64,000 bases of DNA from Thermus sp. CCB_US3_UF1 (GTDB lineage Bacteria; Deinococcota; Deinococci; Deinococcales; Thermaceae): the NCBI RefSeq assembly GCF_000236585.1, contig NC_017278.1, positions 1,612,001 to 1,676,000 on the forward strand, in the 5' to 3' direction. The position numbers and the translations under genes were made by a program. The notes under the pieces are model-generated. The model made no database searches. It was not told where the DNA came from and worked only from the letters and a program-made list of their open reading frames with translations. Positions 15,122 to 52,652 of this stretch are shown in pieces; position 1 is the first letter of the stretch, and each line of letters opens with the position of its first letter.

Positions 15122-16152
15122 GACCAGAGTTCCTCCAGACGCCCCACGCCCTCCGCCCGCAGAAGGCCGAGGAGGTCCAAAAGCACCCGGCGGGGAAAGA
15201 GGGGGCCCCCGTAGACGAAGCCCGTGTACACCTGGACCAGCCGGGCCCCCCGGCGAAGCCGCTCCCAGATGTCCCTGGCCCCCTCTATCCCCCCCACGCT
15301 CACCAGGGTCAGGCCGGGAACCTGGGCCAGGTGGCCGAGCACCTCCAAGGCCCTGGCCTTGAGGGGCCTTCCCGAAAGCCCCCCGGCCTCCTTGGCCCAG
15401 GGGCTTCGGAGGCCCTCGCGGCTTAGGGTGGTGTTCACCGCCACCAGGCCCTCCAGGCGGTGCTTCAAGGCCAAGGCCACCACCTGGTCCAGGGCCGGGG
15501 CCGGGAGGTCCGGGGCCACCTTGAGGAGGAGGGGCTTGGCCGTGGCGGGGCGCAGGCGAAAGAGGAGCTCATCCAAAAAGGGGGCTTCCTGCAGGGTCCT
15601 AAGCCCCGGGGTGTTGGGGGAACTGACGTTCAGGACCAAGTAGTCGCCATAGGGCTCCAAAAGGCGCAAGGCCAAGAGGTAGTCCTCCGCTGCCCTTTCC
15701 AAGGGGGTGTCCCGCCCCTTGCCCAGGTTCACACCCACGGGGAAGGGAAGGCCCCGCTCCCGGAAGCGCCTTAGGCGCTCCGCCGCCCGGGAAGCCCCCT
15801 CGTTGTTGAAGCCCATGCGGTTGATGAGGGCCCGGTCCTCCAGGAGGCGGAAGAGCCGGGGCCTGGGGTTTCCCCCCTGGGGATTGGGGGTGAGGGTACC
15901 CACCTCGGCGAAGCCAAAGCCCAGGGCCCACCAGGCGGCCAGGGCCTTGGCGTCCTTGTCCATCCCCGCCGCCAGGCCCAAGGGGTTGGGAAAGGTGAGG
16001 CCTAGGGCCCTTACCCGAAGCCTAGGGTCCTCCACGCGGAGAAGCCGGGCCGGGACCTCCAGGAGGGGTCCCCGGCCCGACCACCAGGCCAGAGCCTTGA
16101 GGACAAGCTCGTGGGCATACTCGGGATCCAGGGCAAAGAAAAGGCGGTGCAT
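15118..16152 (-). CDS. pyrD: Dihydroorotate dehydrogenase (quinone), class 2
   Basis: FMN enzyme that oxidises dihydroorotate to orotate and feeds electrons to the membrane quinone pool. Seen: 344 residues. The class 2 N-terminal membrane-association helices (HRLFFALDPEYAHELVLKALAWW) are present, then PNPLGLAAGMDKDAKAL, MGFNNEGA, the catalytic Ser region LNVSSPNTPGLR near 175-186, and VAVNTTLSR. Phosphate-binding SVGGIEGARDIWERLRRGA and QVYTGFVYGGP lie near the end. I favour ATG 16152 over the in-frame ATG at 16161 because it gives the family-typical start and sits seven bases from TAGCAT (16165-16160). The gene is convergent with, and overlaps by 4 bp, the end of the pyr operon strand. No PyrR loop is seen upstream. 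Confidence 0.95.
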   Translation of the reverse strand: MHRLFFALDPEYAHELVLKALAWWSGRGPLLEVPARLLRVEDPRLRVRALGLTFPNPLGLAAGMDKDAKALAAWWALGFGFAEVGTLTPNPQGGNPRPRLFRLLEDRALINRMGFNNEGASRAAERLRRFRERGLPFPVGVNLGKGRDTPLERAAEDYLLALRLLEPYGDYLVLNVSSPNTPGLRTLQEAPFLDELLFRLRPATAKPLLLKVAPDLPAPALDQVVALALKHRLEGLVAVNTTLSREGLRSPWAKEAGGLSGRPLKARALEVLGHLAQVPGLTLVSVGGIEGARDIWERLRRGARLVQVYTGFVYGGPLFPRRVLLDLLGLLRAEGVGRLEELWS

Positions 16153-16159
16153 CCTTCCC

Positions 16160-16184
16160 ATGCTATCCCCAGATGGGGTAGCAT
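16160..16184. promoter_or_regulatory. Divergent promoter pair inside an inverted repeat (pyrD / lipoprotein)
   Basis: The 25 bp form an imperfect palindrome: ATGCTA on the left, TAGCAT on the right, CCCC/GGGG inside. Read leftward, TAGCAT (16165-16160) lies seven bases from the pyrD ATG at 16152. Read rightward, TAGCAT (16179-16184) lies six bases from the lipoprotein ATG at 16191. Both genes would then be leaderless. The symmetry could also be an operator. Confidence 0.5.
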
Positions 16185-16190
16185 GCCCCC

Positions 16191-16712
16191 ATGCGCCGCT
16201 TCGGGATGCTGGCCCTAGGGGTAACCCTCCTCGCCGCCTGCTCCTTCAACCTCACCGTTCCCTTGCCCGAGCAAAGGGTCCAGGTACCCTTGGCCGACAG
16301 CCAGGGTCGGGTGGTCTACCCCGCCCAAACCCTCTCCTTTCCCCCGCCAGGGGGGGTGGTGCGGAGGGCGGAGGTGCGGGGCACCCTCGAGGCTGACCAA
16401 GCCCTCAACGCCACCCTCGCCCTTTACGTCCGCCTCCAAGACCCAGGGGAGGACCCTAACTGCCTGGCCCTACGGGACCTAAATGGCGCCCCCTTGGGGT
16501 ACGCCTGCCCCGTGGGCTCCGGGGACGAGAAGGTCGGGGAGGCAAGTTTTGCCGCCTCCAAGACCGCCCCCCTTGGCCTCCGGGGCGAGCAGCTCACCCA
16601 AGGGGTGCAGAGGGGGAAGCTCTGGCTAGGCCTTCAGGTCCAGGGTTTACCCTCGGGCCTCGTGGAGCTCCGCTTCAAGGACCTGAAGGCCATTCTGACC
16701 CTGGGCCTTTAG
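16191..16712 (+). CDS. Hypothetical lipoprotein
   Basis: Function not recognised. Seen: 173 residues with a type II signal peptide. MRRFGMLALGVTLLAAC ends in a good lipobox (LAAC, Cys17), so the mature protein should be lipid-anchored to a membrane in the cell envelope. The mature part is rich in beta-type sequence (TLALYVRLQDP, KLWLGLQVQGLPSGLVELRF) and has a Cys pair (NCLALRDLNGAPLGYACP) that could form a disulfide. No known enzyme motif is visible. It is divergent from pyrD and shares the symmetric promoter region; lon follows 59 bp later with its own -10 box. Likely an outer-surface or periplasmic structural protein, but this is a guess from composition. Confidence 0.7.
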   Translation: MRRFGMLALGVTLLAACSFNLTVPLPEQRVQVPLADSQGRVVYPAQTLSFPPPGGVVRRAEVRGTLEADQALNATLALYVRLQDPGEDPNCLALRDLNGAPLGYACPVGSGDEKVGEASFAASKTAPLGLRGEQLTQGVQRGKLWLGLQVQGLPSGLVELRFKDLKAILTLGL

Positions 16713-30940: not shown

Positions 30941-30946
30941 TATAGT
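30941..30946 (+). promoter_or_regulatory. -10 box of pepF, leaderless arrangement
   Basis: TATAGT ends seven bases before the ATG at 30954 with no Shine-Dalgarno sequence between. The upstream in-frame GTG overlaps this box and is therefore an unlikely start. Confidence 0.55.
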
Positions 30947-30953
30947 GGCCCTC

Positions 30954-32669
30954 ATGGAATGGGACCTCTCGGACCTCTACGCAGGCCCCCAGGACCCCAG
31001 GCTGGAAGCCGACCTGGAGGAAGCCCTGCGCCTCACGGAAACCCTTTCCCCGGAGGCCCTAGGCCAGCCCGAGGAGGCCGAGGCCCTTTTCCGGCGCTAC
31101 GAGCTGGCCCTGGAGAAGGCCTACAAGCCCCTGAACTACGCCTCCTTGTACTTCGCCACCCGCACCCAGGACCCCGAGGCCAAGGCCCTTCTGGACCGGG
31201 TGCGGAACCGCTACACCGAGGTGAGAAACCGCCTGGTGCCCCTCGAGGTGGCCCTGCGCAAGCTCCCCGAGGCGGCCTTCCAGGCCCTATTGGAGGGCCC
31301 AGAGCTGGCCGACCTCCGCCACTTCCTTCTGCGGCAGCGGGCCTACGCCCCCCACACCCTCTCCGAGCGGGAGGAGGAGCTCCTCAACCTCAAGGGCCTG
31401 GTGGGCCGGAGCGCCTGGAGCCAGTTCTACACCGAGTACACGGGCCGCTTCCGCTTCCAGGTGGGGGGCAGGGAGCTCACGGAGATGGAGGTCCGGGCCC
31501 TCCGCCGCGACCCTGACCCCGCGGTGCGCCGGGAGGCCCACCGGGAGCTCTACGGGAAGCTGATGGCCGAAGCCCCCACCCTGGCCTCGGTCTTCAACGC
31601 GGTTTACCTGGACTACCTCCAGGACCTCCGCCTGAGGGGCTACCGCCACCCCTTGGAGCCCGTGGCCCTCAGGGACGAGGTGGAGGTAAGGGACATCGAG
31701 GCCCTCCTCGAGGCCACCCGGGAACACTATCCCCTGGTGGAGGCCTACTACCGCTGGAAGGCCAGGCGGCTTGGCCTACCCCAGGTGCCAAGCCAGGACC
31801 TCCTGGCCCCCTTGCGGAGGGAAAAGCCCAAGGTGCCCTTTGAGGAGGCGCGGGAGCTGGTCCTCACCGCCTTCCGCCGCTTCTCCCCCAGGGTGGAGGC
31901 CATCGCCCGGGAGTTCTTCGGGCGGCGCTGGCTGGACGTCTACCCCAGGCCGGGAAAACGGGGCGGGGCCTTCTGCAGCGGAGGGCTTCCCTCCACCCAC
32001 CCCTACATCCTCCTCAACCACACGGACGACCTGGACGCGGCCCACACCCTGGCCCACGAGCTGGGGCACGGGGTGCACTTCTACCTGGCGCGGAAGCAGC
32101 GCCTCCTCAACTTCGGGGCCTCCACCCCCCTGGCGGAAACGGCCAGCGTCTTTGCGGAAATCCTCCTGGACGACCTGCTGATGGAAAGGCTTTCCGGGGA
32201 GGAAAAGGCCCTCCTCCTGGCCGAACGGGTGGAGGACGCCATCAACACCCTCTTCCGCCAGGTGATGTACACCTTCTTTGAGCGGCGGAGCCTCGAGGCC
32301 CGCCGGGAAGCCGCCCTCTCCCCCGAGGCCTTCCACGGCCTCTGGCAGGAGGAACAGGCGGCCCTCTACGGGGACGCCGTGGCCTGGACGGAGCTGGACC
32401 AGGCCGCCTGGGCGGGCATCCCCCACTTCGTCCACTACCGCTTCTACACCTACAGCTACGCCCTCGGATACCTGGTGGTCCTGGCCCTTTACGGGCGCTA
32501 CCGGGAGGAGGGGGAGGCCTTCGTGCCCAAGTACCTCGAGGTCCTGGAGGCCGGGGAAAGCTCCAGCCCCAAGGAGATCCTGGCCCGGGCCGGGGTGGAA
32601 CTCGGCTCCGAGGCCTTCTTCCGCTACGGCTTCGGGGTGATCCGCTCTTGGCTGGAAGCCCTCCCCTAG
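30954..32669 (+). CDS. pepF: M3-family oligoendopeptidase (PepF-like)
   Basis: Cytoplasmic zinc metallopeptidase that trims oligopeptides. Seen: 571 residues, all-helical in character. The active-site motif HELGH sits in TLAHELGHGVHFYLARKQRLL near 365-385, and the third ligand is probably Glu in AETASVFAEILLDDLL about 25 residues later. RGGAFCSGG and YTYSYALGYLVVLALYGRY near 500-518 are typical M3B segments. I chose ATG 30954, leaderless by its -10 box. truD follows 14 bp later. Divergent from the YbjN/secreted gene pair. Assignment to M3B is firm; specific substrates unknown. Confidence 0.93.
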   Translation: MEWDLSDLYAGPQDPRLEADLEEALRLTETLSPEALGQPEEAEALFRRYELALEKAYKPLNYASLYFATRTQDPEAKALLDRVRNRYTEVRNRLVPLEVALRKLPEAAFQALLEGPELADLRHFLLRQRAYAPHTLSEREEELLNLKGLVGRSAWSQFYTEYTGRFRFQVGGRELTEMEVRALRRDPDPAVRREAHRELYGKLMAEAPTLASVFNAVYLDYLQDLRLRGYRHPLEPVALRDEVEVRDIEALLEATREHYPLVEAYYRWKARRLGLPQVPSQDLLAPLRREKPKVPFEEARELVLTAFRRFSPRVEAIAREFFGRRWLDVYPRPGKRGGAFCSGGLPSTHPYILLNHTDDLDAAHTLAHELGHGVHFYLARKQRLLNFGASTPLAETASVFAEILLDDLLMERLSGEEKALLLAERVEDAINTLFRQVMYTFFERRSLEARREAALSPEAFHGLWQEEQAALYGDAVAWTELDQAAWAGIPHFVHYRFYTYSYALGYLVVLALYGRYREEGEAFVPKYLEVLEAGESSSPKEILARAGVELGSEAFFRYGFGVIRSWLEALP

Positions 32670-34218: not shown

Positions 34219-34248
34219 ATGGTATCAGAGAGAGCCTACCTTGAACAA
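34219..34248 (-). promoter_or_regulatory. Extended -10 promoter of the barrel-like gene
   Basis: On the minus strand TGATACCAT contains TACCAT (34224-34219) with a TGn extension. TTGTTC (34248-34243) lies 18 bp upstream. The start would be near 34212, leaving a short leader with AGGAGGTGGGG. The TGATACCAT word recurs on the minus strand at 59897-59889, upstream of sdhC. Confidence 0.5.
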
Positions 34249-34587
34249 GGCTTCACTTAAGTTTTCCCCAGAAAAGACCGGGTAACCCCGCTCGGCCAGA
34301 ACCCGCCCCACCGCCTCCCCCAAGCCCCGCACCAGGATGGGGGGCCGGCCCAGGTTGGCCATCACCAAAAAGGCCGCCACGTACTCCGCCAGCTCCTCAG
34401 GGGGCATGGGGGAACCCCCGGTGCGCCCGTACCCGGGGAGGTCCAGGAGGTAGAAGGTGTAGCCCGCAGGCAAGGGCTCGGGCCAGCAGGCCGCCTCCTC
34501 GGCCAGGAGGAGGACCGCAAGGCCCCTCCCCACCCGGTCAAAGACCAGGTTGAGCCCGTAGAGGTGCAGATAGCCCGTGCGCCTCAT
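34225..34587 (-). CDS. TTHA1544-like minimal alpha/beta-hydrolase fold protein
   Basis: Seen: 120 residues covering only the first part of an alpha/beta-hydrolase. RRTGYLHLYGLNLVFDRVGRG, AVLLLAEE, YTFYLLDLPGYGRTGGS (the usual oxyanion-to-helix segment) and PPILVRGLGEAVGRVL follow in order. The last should be the nucleophile elbow (G-x-S-x-G) but has no serine. From memory, the T. thermophilus homolog TTHA1544 has a truncated alpha/beta-hydrolase structure. It overlaps the upstream hydrolase gene by 4 bp (ATGA), so the two products are made together. It is likely non-catalytic; a binding or scaffold role with its neighbour is a reasonable guess. Confidence 0.75.
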   Translation of the reverse strand: MRRTGYLHLYGLNLVFDRVGRGLAVLLLAEEAACWPEPLPAGYTFYLLDLPGYGRTGGSPMPPEELAEYVAAFLVMANLGRPPILVRGLGEAVGRVLAERGYPVFSGENLSEALFKVGSL

Positions 34588-35216
34588 AGGGCCAGCCCTC
34601 CGGGCAGGGGGCGAAAGCTCTCCCCCAGAAGGAAGTCCGCCACCAGCTCCGCCACCTCCTCCGGGGCCTCCCACGGCGCCAGGTGGCCTGCCCCCTCCAC
34701 GGTAAAGCGGAGGGCCTGCCCCTTGGCGAAGTCCGCCACCTCCTGGCCGTAAAGGGGCGGGGTGAGGGCGTCCAGGGCCCCTTGGACCACCAGGAGGCGG
34801 GCCCCGGTACCCCGGAGCCAGCGCCTTTGGTCTCCCAGGGCCCCCACCTCCGCCAACCAGGCCGCTATCCCCTCTGGGGAAAGGCCTTCCTTCCAAGCGG
34901 CCAAGATCTCCTCGCTCCCCACGGTGCGGGGGCCAAAGAGGAAGGCCCGGGCCACCCGGGCAAACCCCTCCACCCCGCCCGCCTCGAGGGCGAAGCGCAA
35001 GGCGGCCAGCTTGGCCGCAAGAAGGGGGTCCGTGCGCAGGATGGGGGAAAGGAGGGTGAGGCTTCGGGCCCCTTCCTGGAAGGCCGTGCGCAGGGCGGGT
35101 AGGGCCCCCTCGGCAAAGGCGATGAGGTGGAGCCCCTCCTCCGAGGGAAGGCCCTGCAAAAACCCCAGGCCCGAAGGGGGGGCCAGCCGCCCGGGAAAGA
35201 CGCGCACCTCGCCCAC
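34584..35216 (-). CDS. Alpha/beta-hydrolase-fold protein lacking the nucleophile serine
   Basis: Seen: 210 residues. GLHLIAFAEGALPALR near 48-63 corresponds to the nucleophile elbow, but AFAEG replaces G-x-S-x-G, so the serine is an alanine. The acid and base are kept: Asp in LLVVQGALDALTP and His in VEGAGHLAPWEAPEEV. The protein is therefore probably a pseudo-enzyme or uses another nucleophile. I chose GTG 35216, seven bases from TATAAA (35229-35224); the ATG at 35240 would overlap the divergent thioesterase start. It is followed by, and translationally coupled to, another serine-less hydrolase fold. Ligand unknown. Confidence 0.7.
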   Translation of the reverse strand: MGEVRVFPGRLAPPSGLGFLQGLPSEEGLHLIAFAEGALPALRTAFQEGARSLTLLSPILRTDPLLAAKLAALRFALEAGGVEGFARVARAFLFGPRTVGSEEILAAWKEGLSPEGIAAWLAEVGALGDQRRWLRGTGARLLVVQGALDALTPPLYGQEVADFAKGQALRFTVEGAGHLAPWEAPEEVAELVADFLLGESFRPLPGGLAL

Positions 35217-35223
35217 GCCCCCC

Positions 35224-35231
35224 TTTATACT
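35224..35231. promoter_or_regulatory. Shared bidirectional -10 box (hydrolase / thioesterase)
   Basis: TTTATACT reads as TATACT rightward (35226-35231, seven bases before ATG 35239) and as TATAAA leftward (35229-35224, seven bases before GTG 35216). The two boxes overlap by four bases and give both genes leaderless starts with identical spacing. Only one polymerase could occupy the site at a time. Confidence 0.6.
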
Positions 35232-35238
35232 CCAGGGC

Positions 35239-35643
35239 ATGGACCTGCAAAGCGTCCTCGGCCGGGAAACCCTGGACCAGACCCTGGGGGTGCGCTACCT
35301 GAAGCTCACCCCGGAGGAGGTGGTGGCCGAGCTTCCCGTGGGGCCCAAGGTGCACCAGCCCTTCGGCTTCCTCCACGGAGGGGCCACGGTGGCCTTGGCG
35401 GAAAGCGTGGCCAGCGTCGGGGGCTTCCTCAACTGCCCCCCGGGGCACGCCGCCTTTGGCCTGGAGATCAACTGCAACCACATCCGCAGGAAATCCTCCG
35501 GGACCATCCGGGCCGTGGGCCGGCCCCTCCACCGGGGCCGCACCACCCAGGTCTGGGAGGTCAAGGTCTACGACGAGGAGGAGCGCCTGGTGGCCGCAAG
35601 CCGCTGCACCCTGGCCGTGGTGCCCTTAGAACCAGCCCCGTAG
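35239..35643 (+). CDS. PaaI-type hotdog-fold acyl-CoA thioesterase
   Basis: Hydrolyses acyl-CoA or (hydroxy)phenylacetyl-CoA thioesters. Seen: 134 residues with the single hotdog fold. GVRYLKLTPEEVVAELPVGPKVHQPFGFLHGGATVALAESVAS contains the HGG motif on the central helix near 49-51. INCNHIRRKSSGTIRAVGRPLHRGRTTQVWEVKVYDEE builds the sheet, and a C-terminal CTLAVVP strand closes it. Length matches PaaI/YbgC-type tetramers; the T. thermophilus PaaI is a close size match. It is leaderless by its shared -10 box and divergent from the serine-less hydrolase. Its 3' end overlaps the dipeptidase gene by 18 bp. No phenylacetate genes are nearby, so substrate is open. Confidence 0.85.
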   Translation: MDLQSVLGRETLDQTLGVRYLKLTPEEVVAELPVGPKVHQPFGFLHGGATVALAESVASVGGFLNCPPGHAAFGLEINCNHIRRKSSGTIRAVGRPLHRGRTTQVWEVKVYDEEERLVAASRCTLAVVPLEPAP

Positions 35644-36588
35644 CCAGCGGAGCCAGTTCTCCCCCAGGAAGCCCCCTCCCCCTAGCCCCCGGAGGTCCCG
35701 GTGGCGGTCCAGGCCTAGGGGGACGGCCTCGAGGCCAAACCCCCCGTCCCAGTCCGTGCCCAAGCCCACCCCTTCCGCCCCCAGGAGGGCCTCGGCCCGC
35801 GCCTTGTGCTGGAGGAAGGCGGCCAGGGGAAGCCGGGGCATCCCCCGCCTCCAGCCGGGGTGCAAAAAGGCGTTGTAGGGCACCAGGCCCACCACCCCAC
35901 CCCGCTCCCGGAGGGCCAGAAGAAGGCCATAAGGGAGATGGCGGGGAGTGGGCACCAGGGCACGCAGGTTGGCGTGGGTGGCGCAGACGGGACCGGGGAA
36001 GGCCCTTAGGGCCTCCCAGGCCGCCGCCTCCGCCAGGTGGGAGAGGTCCAGGGCCATCTCCCAGGCGGCCATGGTCTCCAAAAGGGCCCTCCCCGCCTCG
36101 GTGAGGGGGGCCTCCTCGGCGTTGCCCCCGGCGTAGGGGTTGGCCGTGGCCCAGGTGAGGGAAAGGAGGCGCAACCCCCGCTCCCTCAGGGGCAGGAGGG
36201 CTTCCGGGGAGGCCAAGGCGTGGGCCCCTTCCAGGAGGAGGATGAGCCCGGGGACCCCGTCCTGGGGAAAGCGGGCCAGATGCCCTTCCAGGTCCTTTCC
36301 CTCCCGCAGGAGGCGGACCAGGCCCCGGGCCTCCCAGGCCTCGTAAAGGTGAAGCTGGGCCCAGACCTCCTCCTCCCAGTCCTCCCGCCCCCCCGCCCGG
36401 GGGTCGGCGAAAAGGGTGGCGAAGACCACAGCCACCCCCGCCTCCCTCAGGCTGGGCAGGCTCACCAGGGGGGTGTCGGGGTGGGGATCCTGGGCGCGAA
36501 GGGCCTCCAAGGGGAGGGTCAGGTCCCGGCCCAGGGCGCGGGCGTTATAGGCCAGGTCCAGGTGGGCGTCCACCATGACGGGCTCCAT
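35626..36588 (-). CDS. Membrane dipeptidase-like (peptidase family M19)
   Basis: Zinc dipeptidase of the amidohydrolase-like M19 family, which cleaves dipeptides including D-amino-acid or dehydropeptide forms. Seen: 320 residues. The first ligand pair HxD is in MVDAHLDLAYN near 8-10. The bridging Glu lies in ILLLEGAHALAS near 118, His in DLSHLAEAA and in CATHANLRAL, and Asp in VGLGTDWDGG near 290. All M19 ligands are present. No signal peptide is seen, so it is probably cytoplasmic. The start ATG has TAGAGT (36600-36595) six bases upstream; the box overlaps the uvrC -10 box on the other strand. Assignment is firm; substrate is not. Confidence 0.9.
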   Translation of the reverse strand: MEPVMVDAHLDLAYNARALGRDLTLPLEALRAQDPHPDTPLVSLPSLREAGVAVVFATLFADPRAGGREDWEEEVWAQLHLYEAWEARGLVRLLREGKDLEGHLARFPQDGVPGLILLLEGAHALASPEALLPLRERGLRLLSLTWATANPYAGGNAEEAPLTEAGRALLETMAAWEMALDLSHLAEAAAWEALRAFPGPVCATHANLRALVPTPRHLPYGLLLALRERGGVVGLVPYNAFLHPGWRRGMPRLPLAAFLQHKARAEALLGAEGVGLGTDWDGGFGLEAVPLGLDRHRDLRGLGGGGFLGENWLRWLRGWF

Positions 36589-36594
36589 GGGGAA

Positions 36595-36604
36595 ACTCTA
36601 CAAT
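36595..36604. promoter_or_regulatory. Overlapping divergent -10 boxes (M19 dipeptidase / uvrC)
   Basis: TAGAGT read leftward (36600-36595) lies six bases from the dipeptidase ATG. TACAAT read rightward (36599-36604) lies seven bases from GTG 36612 of uvrC. They overlap by two bases. Both genes would be leaderless and compete for one promoter patch. Confidence 0.55.
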
Positions 36605-36611
36605 GGGGGGC

Positions 36612-38390
36612 GTGCGGCCCGCCGAGCTTCCTCCCCTTCCCGAAACCCCCGGGGTCTACCTCTGGAAGCGGGGGGAGGAGGTCCTCTACGTGGGCAAGGC
36701 CAAGAACCTAAGGGCCCGGGTCCGGAGCTACTTCCACGCCGAGGGCAAGGCCCTGCGCATCGCCCAGGAGGCCACGGGGCTGGACTTCATCGCCACCCGG
36801 GACGAGGTGGAGGCCCTTCTCCTCGAGGCCAACCTCATCAAGGCCCACCGACCCCCCTACAACGTCCTCCTCAAGGACGACAAGCACTACCCCTTCCTCA
36901 AGCTTACCCAGGAGGCCTTCCCCACCCTCCTGGTGGTGCGGAGGGTGGAGGCGGACGGGGCCAAGTACTATGGCCCCTTTCCCGAGGCGGGGGCCCTAAG
37001 ACGCATCAAGACCCTCATCGACCGCCTTTTCCCCTTGCGCAAGAACTCGGGCTACCCCATGAAGCGGCGGCGCTACCCCTGCCTGAACCACAGCATGGGG
37101 CGGTGCCTGGCCCCGTGCGTGGGCCTGGCCGACCCCGAGGCCTACGGGGAGGTGGTGCGCCAGGTGGAGGCGGTCTTGGAGGGCAAGGTGGACTGGCTTT
37201 TGGGCCAGCTGGAGGAAAGGATGCGCCAAGCCGCCCGCAGGCTGGAGTTTGAGCGGGCCGCGGAGATCCGCGACCAGATGGAGGCCCTGAAGGCCTTCTT
37301 CGCCACCCACCAGCAGGCCTTTGACCCCGGGATGGGGGACCTGGACTTCCTGGGCCTGGCCCGGGCGGGAGGCCTGGCCGTGGTCCAGCTCTACCAGGTG
37401 CGGGGGGGGCGGATCCTGGGGCGGATCAGCCGGGTGGTGGAGAAGGAGGAGGCCCAGGAGGAGGAGATCCTCTGGGCCTTCCTGCGGGACCACTACCTGG
37501 AGGCCTCCCCCCTCCCCCCCCTGATCCTCCTCCCCTTCCCCCTGGAGGACCTGGAGGGCTTGGCGGAACTCCTCCGCCGCCGGGCCGGGCGGAAGGTGGA
37601 GGTACGGGTGCCCAAGAAGGGGGAAAAGCTGAGGCTTCTGGAGCTGGCGGAGCGGAACGCCCGCCTGGCCCTGGAGAGCGAGCTCAAGCTCCGGGAGCGG
37701 CGGGGGGACCACCCGGCCCTCCAGGCCCTAAAGGACCTTCTAGGGCTTCCCGTGCGCCCTTTCCGCCTCGAGGCCTACGACATAAGCCACCTCCAGGGCC
37801 AGGCCCGGGTCTTCTCCCTGGCGGTCTTTGAGGGAGGGAGGCCCAAAAAGGCCGAGTACCGCCGCATGCGCCTCAGGGCGGGCAACGACGACTACCAGGC
37901 CATGGAGGAAGGGGTGTTCCGCCGCTTCACGGGAAGCCTCAAGGAAATGCCCCTCCCCGACCTCCTCCTCATCGACGGGGGCTTGGGCCAGGTGCGGGCA
38001 GCGGAAAGGGCCCTGGCGCGGGCGGGGCTGCGGCTACCCCTGGTGGGCCTGGCCAAGCGGGAGGAGGTGCTCATCACCCCGGAGGGGCGGGAGATCCGCC
38101 TCCCCCTCACCCACCCCGCCCTGAGGCTCCTCATCCACCTGCGGGACGAGGCCCACCAAAACGGCCTCCGCCAGCACCAAAAGGACCGGAGCCGGGAGCT
38201 TTTCAAGGTCCTGGAGGGCATCCCCGGCATCGGGGCGGCCCGGCGGCGGATGCTTTTGGAGCGCTACGGGGGGCTTGGGGCCCTCAAGGAAGCCCCCCTG
38301 GAGGAGCTGGCCCGCCTGCCGGGGATGACCCGGAAGGCGGCTGAGGCCCTCAAGGCGGCCCTTTCCCAGTCCGGAGGTCCCACCGGGTGA
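36612..38390 (+). CDS. uvrC: UvrABC excinuclease subunit C
   Basis: Makes both incisions around bulky DNA lesions in nucleotide-excision repair. Seen: 592 residues. The N-terminal GIY-YIG nuclease is in GVYLWKRGEEVLYVGKAKNLRARVRSYF near 14-41 (3' incision). RYPCLNHSMGRCLAPCVG carries a cysteine cluster. A UVR motif (LEFERAAEIRDQMEAL) lies near 210, and an RNase H-like endonuclease contains DISHLQGQARV and LLIDGGLGQV (5' incision). The C-terminal helix-hairpin-helix is in GIPGIGAARRRMLLERYGGL. I chose GTG 36612 because TACAAT lies seven bases upstream; the ATG at 36603 overlaps that box. Firm. Confidence 0.96.
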   Translation: MRPAELPPLPETPGVYLWKRGEEVLYVGKAKNLRARVRSYFHAEGKALRIAQEATGLDFIATRDEVEALLLEANLIKAHRPPYNVLLKDDKHYPFLKLTQEAFPTLLVVRRVEADGAKYYGPFPEAGALRRIKTLIDRLFPLRKNSGYPMKRRRYPCLNHSMGRCLAPCVGLADPEAYGEVVRQVEAVLEGKVDWLLGQLEERMRQAARRLEFERAAEIRDQMEALKAFFATHQQAFDPGMGDLDFLGLARAGGLAVVQLYQVRGGRILGRISRVVEKEEAQEEEILWAFLRDHYLEASPLPPLILLPFPLEDLEGLAELLRRRAGRKVEVRVPKKGEKLRLLELAERNARLALESELKLRERRGDHPALQALKDLLGLPVRPFRLEAYDISHLQGQARVFSLAVFEGGRPKKAEYRRMRLRAGNDDYQAMEEGVFRRFTGSLKEMPLPDLLLIDGGLGQVRAAERALARAGLRLPLVGLAKREEVLITPEGREIRLPLTHPALRLLIHLRDEAHQNGLRQHQKDRSRELFKVLEGIPGIGAARRRMLLERYGGLGALKEAPLEELARLPGMTRKAAEALKAALSQSGGPTG

Positions 38391-50243: not shown

Positions 50244-52087
50244 CCCTCGAGGCCCAGGGCCCTAAGCCGCTCCGCCGCCACCTTACCCCCCTCCCAGCCG
50301 GCCAGGCGCCAGTAGGTCCGCACCGCCTCCTGGAAGGCCGAAGGGTCCAGGCGGGCCTCCGGGTTCCCCCGGCGGAAGGGCTGGAAAAAGCGCCCGGGGA
50401 GCCGGTCCTCCTCGGGAGGGATTCCCTCCCGCAGGTTGAAAAGCCGGGCAAGCTGCAGGGTCCTCTCCCCCACCTGGAGCATCTCCTCCGGGGTAAGCCG
50501 CCAGCCGGTGGCGGCGTAGACCGCCTCCTGCCACTCCTCCGGGGTCCAGGGGACGAAATCGCACATCACCAGGCTGTTCACGAAGCCCCGCTCCCGGGTC
50601 TTGGTCCAGAGCATGCGCACCTTGTCCTCGGAAAGGTCCTCTATGGGCAGGGGCTGAAAGTCCTCCCCGTAGAAGCGGAGCTCCTTCAACCCCTTCCCCT
50701 CCTTGGCGAAGGCGGTGTCGTGGAGGTTGTGGTTGTGGTCCGCCCCCGTGGGGCTCACCGCATACCCCACCCCCAGGGCCCGCTTGAAGCGGGGATCGTG
50801 CATGGGCACCTCCTGCCCCTTCACGTGCATGGCCAGCTCGGGGTGGCCCAAGACCTCGGCCAGGCGCCTGGCCCCTTGGGCCAGGAGTTCCCCAAGCCGC
50901 CCCTCCCGGCGGGCCAGCTTCTCTATGGCGGCGATGAGGGCATCGGCGTGGCCAAAGCGCAGGCCCAGGCCCTCATCGTCCAAATAGCCCCGCTCCACCG
51001 CCTCCATGGCCGTAGCCACCGTGACCCCCACGCCGATCACGTCCAGGCCGTACTGGTTGCAGAGGGTGTTGGCCTTGGTCACGGCGTAGGGGTCGGTCAC
51101 GCCGCAGGTGGAGCCCAAAGCCCCTAGGCCCTCGTACTCCGGCCCCCCGTACTCCGGGCGCACGTCGTACTTGCCCGTCCCCTCAATGCGCACCACCTGC
51201 TTGCAGCGGATGGCGCAGGCGTAGCAGGTGTCCCGGCCAATGCGGATGCCCAGGGCGTCTAGGCTGGTGCCGTCCAGGGCTTCGGCCCCTTCCAGGAAGC
51301 CATCCTGGAAGTTGTGGCTGGGTAGAACGCCGCGCAGGTTGAAGGGCTTCACCGTGCCCACGGTGCCCATGGTGACCATCCCCGCCGCCCGCTCCATCCG
51401 CTCCTTGGCCATGCGCCGGGCCAGCTCCTTGAGGAGGCCGGGGTCGTGGTAGGCGGGCAGGGTTTCCTTGCGGGCCCGGGCGGAGACGGCCTTGAGCCTC
51501 TTGGCTCCCATCACCGCCCCCAACCCCCCCCGGCCAGCGAAGTGGGCCAGGTCGTGGATCACGTTGGCGGTGAGGACGCGGTTCTCCCCGGCGATCCCGA
51601 TCTGGGCCACCCGGGTATTGGCCCCGTGGGCCTCCTTGAGGAGGGCCTCCACCTCGAGGGGGTCCTTGCCCCAGAGGTGGGGGGCGGGGTGCAGGGCCAC
51701 CTCCCCCCCCTCCACGTGGAGGTAGACGGGCTCGGCCGCCTGCCCCAGGACCACCAGGGCATCCAGGCCGGCGTTCTTGAGCTCTGCCCCGAAGAAGCCC
51801 CCGCCCTCCGCGTCCCCATACCCGCCGGTGAGGGGGCTCTTGGCGGCCACGGTGTTCCGGCCGGAGCCCGAGATGGGGGTACCGGTGAGGACCCCAGGGG
51901 CAAAGACCAGGGCGTTCTCCGGGCCCAAGGGGTCGGCCCCCGGGGGCACGTGCCTAAGGAGAAGGTAGGCGCTTAGGGCCCTTCCCCCCAGAAACCTCCG
52001 CCAAAACGCCTCGCCAAAACCCTCATACCAGATGCGCCCCGTGGACAGGTCCACGAAGGCCACGCGGTCATGGTAGCCCTTAGGCAT
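50240..52087 (-). CDS. Aldehyde:ferredoxin oxidoreductase family protein (tungsten-type)
   Basis: Oxidises an aldehyde to the acid, passing electrons to ferredoxin through a tungsto-bispterin and a 4Fe-4S cluster. Seen: 615 residues. The N-terminal AOR domain opens with VAFVDLSTGRIWYEGFGEAFWRRFLGGRALSAYLL and contains PISGSGRNTVAAKSPLTGGYGDAEGGG. Cluster ligands CxxCxxxC lie in RDTCYACAIRCKQV near 286, with a fourth Cys in NSLVMCDFVPW near 507, as in Pyrococcus AOR. AVSPTGADHNHNLHDT and the C-terminal TPEEMLQVGERTLQLARLFNLREG are typical. TAGCAT (52099-52094) lies six bases before the ATG. No partner ferredoxin subunit or transporter is adjacent. Substrate and metal (W or Mo) unknown. Confidence 0.9.
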   Translation of the reverse strand: MPKGYHDRVAFVDLSTGRIWYEGFGEAFWRRFLGGRALSAYLLLRHVPPGADPLGPENALVFAPGVLTGTPISGSGRNTVAAKSPLTGGYGDAEGGGFFGAELKNAGLDALVVLGQAAEPVYLHVEGGEVALHPAPHLWGKDPLEVEALLKEAHGANTRVAQIGIAGENRVLTANVIHDLAHFAGRGGLGAVMGAKRLKAVSARARKETLPAYHDPGLLKELARRMAKERMERAAGMVTMGTVGTVKPFNLRGVLPSHNFQDGFLEGAEALDGTSLDALGIRIGRDTCYACAIRCKQVVRIEGTGKYDVRPEYGGPEYEGLGALGSTCGVTDPYAVTKANTLCNQYGLDVIGVGVTVATAMEAVERGYLDDEGLGLRFGHADALIAAIEKLARREGRLGELLAQGARRLAEVLGHPELAMHVKGQEVPMHDPRFKRALGVGYAVSPTGADHNHNLHDTAFAKEGKGLKELRFYGEDFQPLPIEDLSEDKVRMLWTKTRERGFVNSLVMCDFVPWTPEEWQEAVYAATGWRLTPEEMLQVGERTLQLARLFNLREGIPPEEDRLPGRFFQPFRRGNPEARLDPSAFQEAVRTYWRLAGWEGGKVAAERLRALGLEG

Positions 52088-52093
52088 AGCCCC

Positions 52094-52105
52094 ATGCTAT
52101 AAGAT
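52094..52105. promoter_or_regulatory. Abutting divergent -10 boxes (AOR / tsaB)
   Basis: TAGCAT read leftward (52099-52094) is six bases from the AOR ATG. TAAGAT read rightward (52100-52105) is seven bases from GTG 52113 of tsaB. The boxes touch without a gap. Both genes would be leaderless. Confidence 0.55.
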
Positions 52106-52112
52106 GCCCCCC

Positions 52113-52652
52113 GTGTGGACCCTCACCCTGGACACCGCCACCCCCTACCTGGCCCTGGGCCTCTTCCGCGGCGAGGAGGGCCTGGGGCGGGTGGTCCACC
52201 TGGGAAGGCGGCACGAGGAAGCCCTCTTTGACCTCCTGGAAGCCCTTTTGGCCGAGGTAGGGGCCAGGCGGGAGGAGATCGGCGCCCTGGTGCTGGGGGA
52301 AGGCCCCGGTTCCTACACCGGCCTGCGCATCGCCTTGGCGGCAGGGCTTGGAATCGCCCTGGCCCAAGGGGCCAGGGTCTACGGGGTGGGTTCCCTCCTC
52401 GCCGCCTGCTGGCCCTTCCTGGAGGAAGGGGGGCCGCCCCTTACCCCCCTCTTCACCGCCCGGAACGGCCTTTACTACGGGGCCACCTACGCCAAGCGGG
52501 AGGGGAAGCCCTTGGAGGTGAACCCCCCTAGGAAGCTACGGGCCGAGGAGCGGCCCAAGACGGGCCTCCTCCTGGACCCTCCCCCGGACCCCCGGGCCCT
52601 TTACGAGCTCCTCCCCTTCGCCCGGGAAGGGGTGGAGCCCCTCTACCTCTAG
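52113..52652 (+). CDS. tsaB: tRNA threonylcarbamoyladenosine biosynthesis protein TsaB
   Basis: Non-catalytic ASKHA partner that dimerises with TsaD and supports t6A synthesis. Seen: 179 residues. WTLTLDTATPYLALGLFRGEEGLG, then RHEEALFDLLEALLAEVGARREEIGALVLGEGPGSYTGLRIALAAGLG near 30-80 is the hallmark. The protein is shorter than the E. coli form (231) because the second lobe is reduced, as often seen in this phylum. I chose GTG 52113, because TAAGAT (52100-52105) lies seven bases upstream; ATG 52104 overlaps the box. The stop overlaps the FMN reductase stop inside CTAG. tsaD is at 1841. Confidence 0.93.
   Translation: MWTLTLDTATPYLALGLFRGEEGLGRVVHLGRRHEEALFDLLEALLAEVGARREEIGALVLGEGPGSYTGLRIALAAGLGIALAQGARVYGVGSLLAACWPFLEEGGPPLTPLFTARNGLYYGATYAKREGKPLEVNPPRKLRAEERPKTGLLLDPPPDPRALYELLPFAREGVEPLYL

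Follow-up and report, generated by a model that had tools for sequence, protein, structure and literature searches.

Two divergent genes in Thermus sp. CCB_US3_UF1 have start codons separated by only 22 bp. The question raised by this locus is whether a single TATA element, read in both directions, can serve both genes when neither mRNA carries a leader. The locus lies in a stretch of 64,000 nucleotides of the genome (contig NC_017278.1, positions 1,612,001 to 1,676,000), here called the window; positions are those of the window unless a locus number is given. The reading favoured here, with a probability of roughly 60%, is that the gap would act as one bidirectional core promoter for two leaderless genes, its leftward side being the weaker.

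Promoters with a shared -10 element and leaderless -10 motifs have each been published before. Excerpts of the work of Warman, Grainger and co-workers describe bidirectional promoters in which a near-symmetric -10 element is used in either orientation, with start sites 7-25 bp apart, often driving two mRNAs (PMC12825309, PMC10268837). The commonest separation of such start-site pairs in E. coli is 18 bp, followed by 10 and 23 bp (PMC12825309). In leaderless genes of Deinococcus-Thermus, as excerpts of two studies describe them, the -10 hexamer precedes the start codon by 6-7 nt (PMC12340547, PMC3160421). Most of those in D. radiodurans lack a -35 element, and the motif alone, when re-inserted, restored expression (PMC12340547).

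A leaderless bidirectional promoter is undescribed among the matches listed in a search of open-licence literature, mostly titles and abstract openings. Within the available text of PMC12340547, a term search finds no mention of bidirectional, divergent, palindromic, opposite or symmetric promoters; in that of PMC3160421, bidirectional promoters are likewise unmentioned and “divergent” occurs solely in the title of a reference. A study of FadR in T. thermophilus HB8, from the same genus, does call divergent pairs bidirectional promoters, the term there meaning divergent neighbours near regulator sites (PMC5597230). Its available text describes no shared -10 element for these pairs.

The two genes and the gap between them

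The rightward gene (35239-35643, plus strand) encodes a hotdog-fold acyl-CoA thioesterase of 134 amino acids and is predicted to be leaderless. The protein scores 112.7 bits against TIGR00369 (curated cut-off 36.6) and 61.5 bits against PF03061 (curated cut-off 20.6), and its best solved relatives are YdiI, PA1618 and EntH. All 27 Thermus genomes have the gene, with a broken frame in one (G020), a genome that is 65 percent complete. At its 3' end the gene overlaps that of a convergent M19 peptidase by 18 bases (35626-35643).

The leftward gene (34584-35216, minus strand) encodes an alpha/beta-hydrolase-like protein of 210 amino acids. Scored on the open reading frame begun at 35240, it reaches 30.9 bits against PF12697, where the cut-off is 26.3. 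By these family profiles both genes are real. A second hydrolase-like reading frame (34225-34587, minus strand; PF12697 below cut-off) overlaps the stop of the first. Of the 27 Thermus loci, 22 show a similar frame running across the end of the hydrolase gene, and the two frames likely belong to one operon.

The hydrolase-like protein may be a non-catalytic or unusual member of its fold. Its elbow-like stretch reads AF[AG]EGA in 26 of 27 loci, the frame being broken in the remaining one (L020). The nucleophile motif GxSxG occurs nowhere in 24 of the 27 proteins, and in the other three a GLSEG lies away from the elbow-like stretch; the GxSxG at the elbow that marks an active serine alpha/beta hydrolase is therefore absent. 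Stretches resembling the Asp and His motifs are kept in the C-terminal part in most loci. A hydrolase split over the two reading frames was also considered. Relatives in two other genera (g2 and g3) begin with a similar protein start, so a shortened family looks likelier than a split hydrolase.

The start of the leftward gene is likely GTG 35216, which does not vary among the 27 Thermus genomes. A longer protein could begin at ATG 35240; in 19 of the 27 genomes, however, the spacer on the left is 6 instead of 7 nt, which shifts the frame upstream of GTG 35216 and breaks the longer version. A shorter protein from GTG 35207 was rejected as well: this codon, the fourth from GTG 35216, is GTG in only 10 of 27 genomes and otherwise ATC, ATA, CTG or CTC.

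The gap itself (35217-35238) can be read directly. It contains the AT element TTTATACT at 35224-35231. On the plus strand, ATG 35239 is preceded by the seven nucleotides CCAGGGC (the rightward discriminator, 35232-35238) and before these by TATACT (35226-35231), the -10 hexamer of the thioesterase gene. On the minus strand, GTG 35216 is preceded by the seven nucleotides GGGGGGC (the leftward discriminator, 35217-35223) and before these by TATAAA (35229-35224), the putative -10 hexamer of the hydrolase gene. The leftward discriminator is G-rich with a C next to the start, as in the leaderless genes of this genome. The original prediction, in which each hexamer stands seven bases from its start codon within a space of 22 bp, is exact.

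Such a symmetric layout is rare. The pattern CAY-N9-TATA-N9-RTG occurs once in the window, whereas 100 shuffles gave one copy in a single shuffle, a mean of 0.01. The whole genome has two such sites and none of a control pattern. What tells against a promoter here is that no consensus one of -35 plus -10 type was found in 34900-35500, although the -35 is missing from most leaderless genes of D. radiodurans.

The rightward hexamer can be judged against the habits of the genome. A sample of 464 kb was used, made of the window and twenty 20-kb stretches of the same genome, with 432 genes and 1581 candidate starts. The genes were called crudely, as long open reading frames selected by G+C content at codon positions and left uncurated, a procedure that may have missed the thioesterase itself; the statistics are plain counts without a weight matrix. 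In this sample TANNNT precedes a candidate start by 6 nt in 51 cases and by 7 nt in 45, compared with a mean of 7.9 at distances of 9-40 nt. The sixth base after the hexamer in these 96 sites is C in 60, G in 26, T in 9 and A in 1. Leaderless -10 elements are common in this genome.

TATACT has T at its first position, A at the second and T at the sixth, and it keeps its 7-nt spacing in 27 of 27 Thermus genomes. Since TANNNT is enriched at 6-7 nt, TATACT at 7 nt may be taken as an ordinary leaderless -10 element. Beyond the genus, an in-frame ATG or GTG with TANNNT 6-7 nt ahead of it is found in all 20 thioesterase relatives (L037-L056), which come from four further genera of the same family. 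The leaderless promoter of the thioesterase therefore looks older than the genus, and the leaderless state of the gene seems to extend throughout the family.

Does the leftward gene use the same element?

The leftward hexamer is the weak point of the shared element. TATAAA carries A rather than T at position 6. It is therefore not counted as a member of the leaderless -10 class, and may nevertheless work like one. In the 464-kb sample, TANNNA is not enriched 6-7 nt before candidate starts (5 and 8, compared with 4.3). Judged by the A-11 and T-7 of published bidirectional promoters, the rightward hexamer has both bases and leftward TATAAA lacks T-7.

The case for leftward use comes mainly from conservation. 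Every one of the 27 Thermus genomes has a gap of the form CAC-N(6 or 7)-TTTATACT-N7-ATG, and the base before TTT (C35223 here) is always C. The string CTTTATACT, the GTG and the ATG are invariant in all 27. The stretch from CAC to ATG occurs in 15 different sequences among these genomes, which are related, so that counts among them are not independent. The string CTTTATACT-N7-ATGGA occurs exactly once in each of the 27 genomes and in 1 of 84 other genomes of the order. The right spacer is always 7 nt long. The left spacer is 6 nt in 19 genomes and 7 nt in 8. In a tree of 26 loci, parsimony requires five or more changes of its length, three or more of them on well-supported branches. Throughout these changes the left spacer keeps to 6-7 nt before the GTG, which are the leaderless distances of this genome, and this counts for a shared promoter.

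The two T residues to the left of TATACT tell in the same direction. In rightward leaderless promoters of this genome, the two bases to the left of the hexamer are T in 13 and 14 of 96 sites and G in 47 and 58. Because such promoters favour G there, TATAAA read leftward supplies a reason for two invariant Ts. Related genera give a mixed picture. In one sister genus (g5, one genome) more bases separate the two starts, and the boxes are distinct: TATACT-6-ATG for the one and TATAAC-6-GTG for the other. In g2 and g3, where the divergent pair is kept, inspection of four loci by eye found no TANNNT 6-7 nt before the candidate hydrolase starts. Taken together, leftward use of TATAAA is likely; its strength is probably low, since the hexamer lacks T6.

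Another model keeps only the rightward promoter. In it the hydrolase gene is transcribed from further upstream, AAAGGGGG is a weak ribosome-binding sequence, and the TTT is conserved for that function. The missing T6 suits this model, and so does the leftward AAAG, which is invariant and followed by a further G in 25 of 27 loci. TATAAA-N7-RTG has just two copies in the whole genome, and the other one is located where an upstream gene of the same direction ends, a natural place for a ribosome site; AAAGGGGG could serve as one there.

The spacing and the comparative data speak against it. AAAGG ends 4-5 nt before the GTG, whereas the peak of GGAGG in this genome, 4-7 nt before the start, would place the AAAGG part further off, and AAAGG itself shows no clear peak in this genome. 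Two of the 27 loci have AAAGAAGG instead. In the g5 genome AAAGG has become AACGG, yet the GTG still has TATAA 6 nt ahead of it. In the 30 bp that precede the GTG, none of the 27 Thermus loci has GGAGG, AGGAG or GAGGT. In favour of the model, leftward TANNNT sites lie 31-112 bp before the GTG in 8 of 27 loci, and three of these (L008, L014 and L019) share a site 63 bp before it, so another leftward promoter is possible in those three. The other 19 loci, however, have no leftward TANNNT within 200 bp upstream. On balance a ribosome site in place of a promoter is unlikely.

A different register within the gap can also be imagined. Here the leftward hexamer is GAGTAT (35232-35227, minus strand), transcription starts at about 35219-35220, and a leader of 3-4 nt precedes the GTG. 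This register pairs the leftward A-11 and T-7 with the rightward T-7 and A-11. According to the part of PMC10268837 available, divergent starts 18 bp apart with such reciprocal bases are the commonest form in most bacterial species. The A-11 and T-7 of GAGTAT are invariant, because TATACT itself is invariant. The register lacks a T at -12, leaves unexplained both the invariance of TTT and C35223 and the left spacer of 6-7 nt, and would give a longer leader in g5. It is a doubtful candidate, and somewhat less probable than a ribosome site.

Finally, the leftward arrangement could be a chance one, with the hydrolase starting elsewhere and the symmetry meaningless; the leftward start does rest on sequence evidence only, but this is very improbable with GTG and CTTTATACT invariant in 27 of 27 genomes and the frame broken upstream of the GTG in 19.

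The preferred reading is thus that of one AT element for two leaderless genes, as originally predicted. It is supported by conservation, by the distances between hexamers and starts and by how common leaderless genes are in this genome; what it leaves wanting is a T6 on the left.

How a shared element would work

The process would start with the housekeeping RNA polymerase binding TATACT. Rightward transcription would begin at or beside A35239 and give a leaderless thioesterase mRNA, a step that is well supported by the motif and its conservation. In other rounds the polymerase would sit reversed on the same AT core by way of TATAAA and start at or beside G35216. The product would be a leaderless mRNA of the hydrolase-like gene, probably including the overlapping second reading frame. 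Because its -10 hexamer lacks T6, the leftward direction would be the weaker one unless activated.

The two orientations would exclude each other only while a polymerase occupies the element, and both genes could be expressed in one cell. The original prediction went further and expected mutually exclusive expression, which is overstated: only simultaneous occupancy is ruled out. According to the available text on E. coli, the basal activity of all five bidirectional promoters tested was too low for competition, and interference appeared when one direction was strongly activated (PMC12825309). Given such low basal activity, exclusive occupancy does not lead to exclusive expression. Our best guess is that there is little competition here too, the more so given the poor leftward hexamer.

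The arrangement resembles the bidirectional promoters of E. coli in that one -10 element is used in either orientation; the separation predicted here from the start codons is 23 bp. It differs in that both mRNAs are predicted to be leaderless, so that the start codons stand 23 bp apart with only promoter between the genes. It differs also in its shared core TATA, its hexamer offset of 2 and a leftward hexamer without T-7. Compared with the leaderless promoters of Deinococcus-Thermus, the distance from hexamer to start is the same, but one motif would serve two genes.

If this is true, the whole regulatory space of two genes consists of one -10 region and two discriminators throughout the genus. 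This would be about the smallest conceivable two-gene control element of a bacterium. It would offer a clean system in which to ask whether the ratio of two proteins depends solely on the orientation of the polymerase. The annotation of start codons would profit too, since in Thermus both starts of a divergent pair could be predicted from a hexamer that they share.

Other divergent pairs with a common -10 element

A cleaner candidate for a shared leaderless promoter lies 1.4 kb away, between the M19 peptidase gene, identified by its family profile, and a gene that we take to be uvrC. Here two overlapping -10 hexamers, ACTCTACAAT, lie in the stretch CATGGGGAAACTCTACAATGGGGGGCGTG (36586-36614), and T6 is present in both directions. 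Leftward TAGAGT stands 6 nt before ATG 36588 of the peptidase gene, and rightward TACAAT stands 7 nt before GTG 36612 of uvrC; the hexamer offset is +4. With such an arrangement uvrC would start at GTG 36612 and not at ATG 36603, which overlaps the hexamer. The pattern is present in 24 of the 26 Thermus loci that reach this far (L017 and L026 lack it, and L028 ends before it).

Further examples come from the symmetric pattern itself. The other CAY-N9-TATA-N9-RTG site in the genome (L031, 1501-1528) lies between what we take to be tyrS and the gene of a short putative secreted protein, and the only site with 8/9 spacing (L115, 1501-1527) between what we take to be panC and the gene of a putative membrane protein. 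These names, like that of uvrC, come from reading the translations of the reading frames and not from a family search. Both sites read TATACT in both directions and have a common GTATAC core. Inspected by eye, the tyrS-type string is present in 23 of 23 genomes among the matches listed, of 27, and the panC-type string in 25 of 27.

Shared elements can also be counted in the 464-kb sample. Among 60 adjacent divergent pairs, 12 have TANNNT 6-7 nt before both starts, and in 7 of these 12 the hexamers are offset by at most 6 bases. The 180 leaderless-like sites have 5 partners on the opposite strand at offset +4, 4 at -1 and 3 at +12. Four of those at +4, but just one of those at -1, have a called gene on either side. 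The start codons are 23-24 bp apart in the +4 class and 18 bp apart in the -1 case between called genes. No partners with T6 on both sides occur at offset 2; the gap between the thioesterase and hydrolase genes has this offset and, lacking T6 on one side, is not counted in these tallies.

Overlapping hexamers share bases, which makes unrelated offsets an unfair comparison. A fairer control was therefore used, in which the overlapping opposite hexamer is retained and the position of the reverse start codon (CAY) is counted, each pair entering twice. At offset +4, CAY stands at 6-7 nt 10 times, compared with 0.83 per two other distances. The corresponding figures at offset -1 are 8 and 2.0. Opposite leaderless-like starts with a common -10 element are thus enriched; the excess at +4 holds, and that at -1 is modest.

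Across the genus, CAY-N9-TATA-N9-RTG has 86 sites in 27 genomes, compared with 10 for a backwards control. Counted by spacing, oriented matches number 172 (9/9), 123 (8/9), 62 (5/9) and 40 (12/9), so that the 9/9 spacing exceeds the two distant ones about three- to fourfold among genomes that are related and not independent. The count of this pattern is no proof of sharing, because a real leaderless start with a chance CAY is also counted. The pattern ANNNTANNNT, compared with its backwards control alone, has a genus total of 247 against 14.

These results tip gently towards a general reading. Thermus would repeatedly pack divergent leaderless genes on a single shared -10 element, with start codons 18-24 bp apart and geometries like those of E. 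coli bidirectional promoters. In the absence of a leader and of a -35 element, the ratio of the two proteins would be set by nothing but the hexamer. The gap between the thioesterase and hydrolase genes would be an asymmetric, genus-wide member of this group.

Two other divergent leaderless-like pairs are found in the window. At 52087-52113 the hexamers abut (offset 6), and at 16152-16191 they lie 19 apart.

Two single sites may also be mentioned. The other copy of TATAAA-N7-RTG in the genome, TATAAAGGGGGCCGTG (L190, 1825-1840), overlaps the stop of the upstream co-directional gene and precedes a GTG-started gene of 232 amino acids; of three other Thermus loci inspected, two have a similar string in front of a gene like this one. 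At 30941-30956, TATAGT stands 7 nt before ATG 30954. The reading frame listed from GTG 30945, presumably peptidase-like from its translation, may therefore be leaderless and start at 30954.
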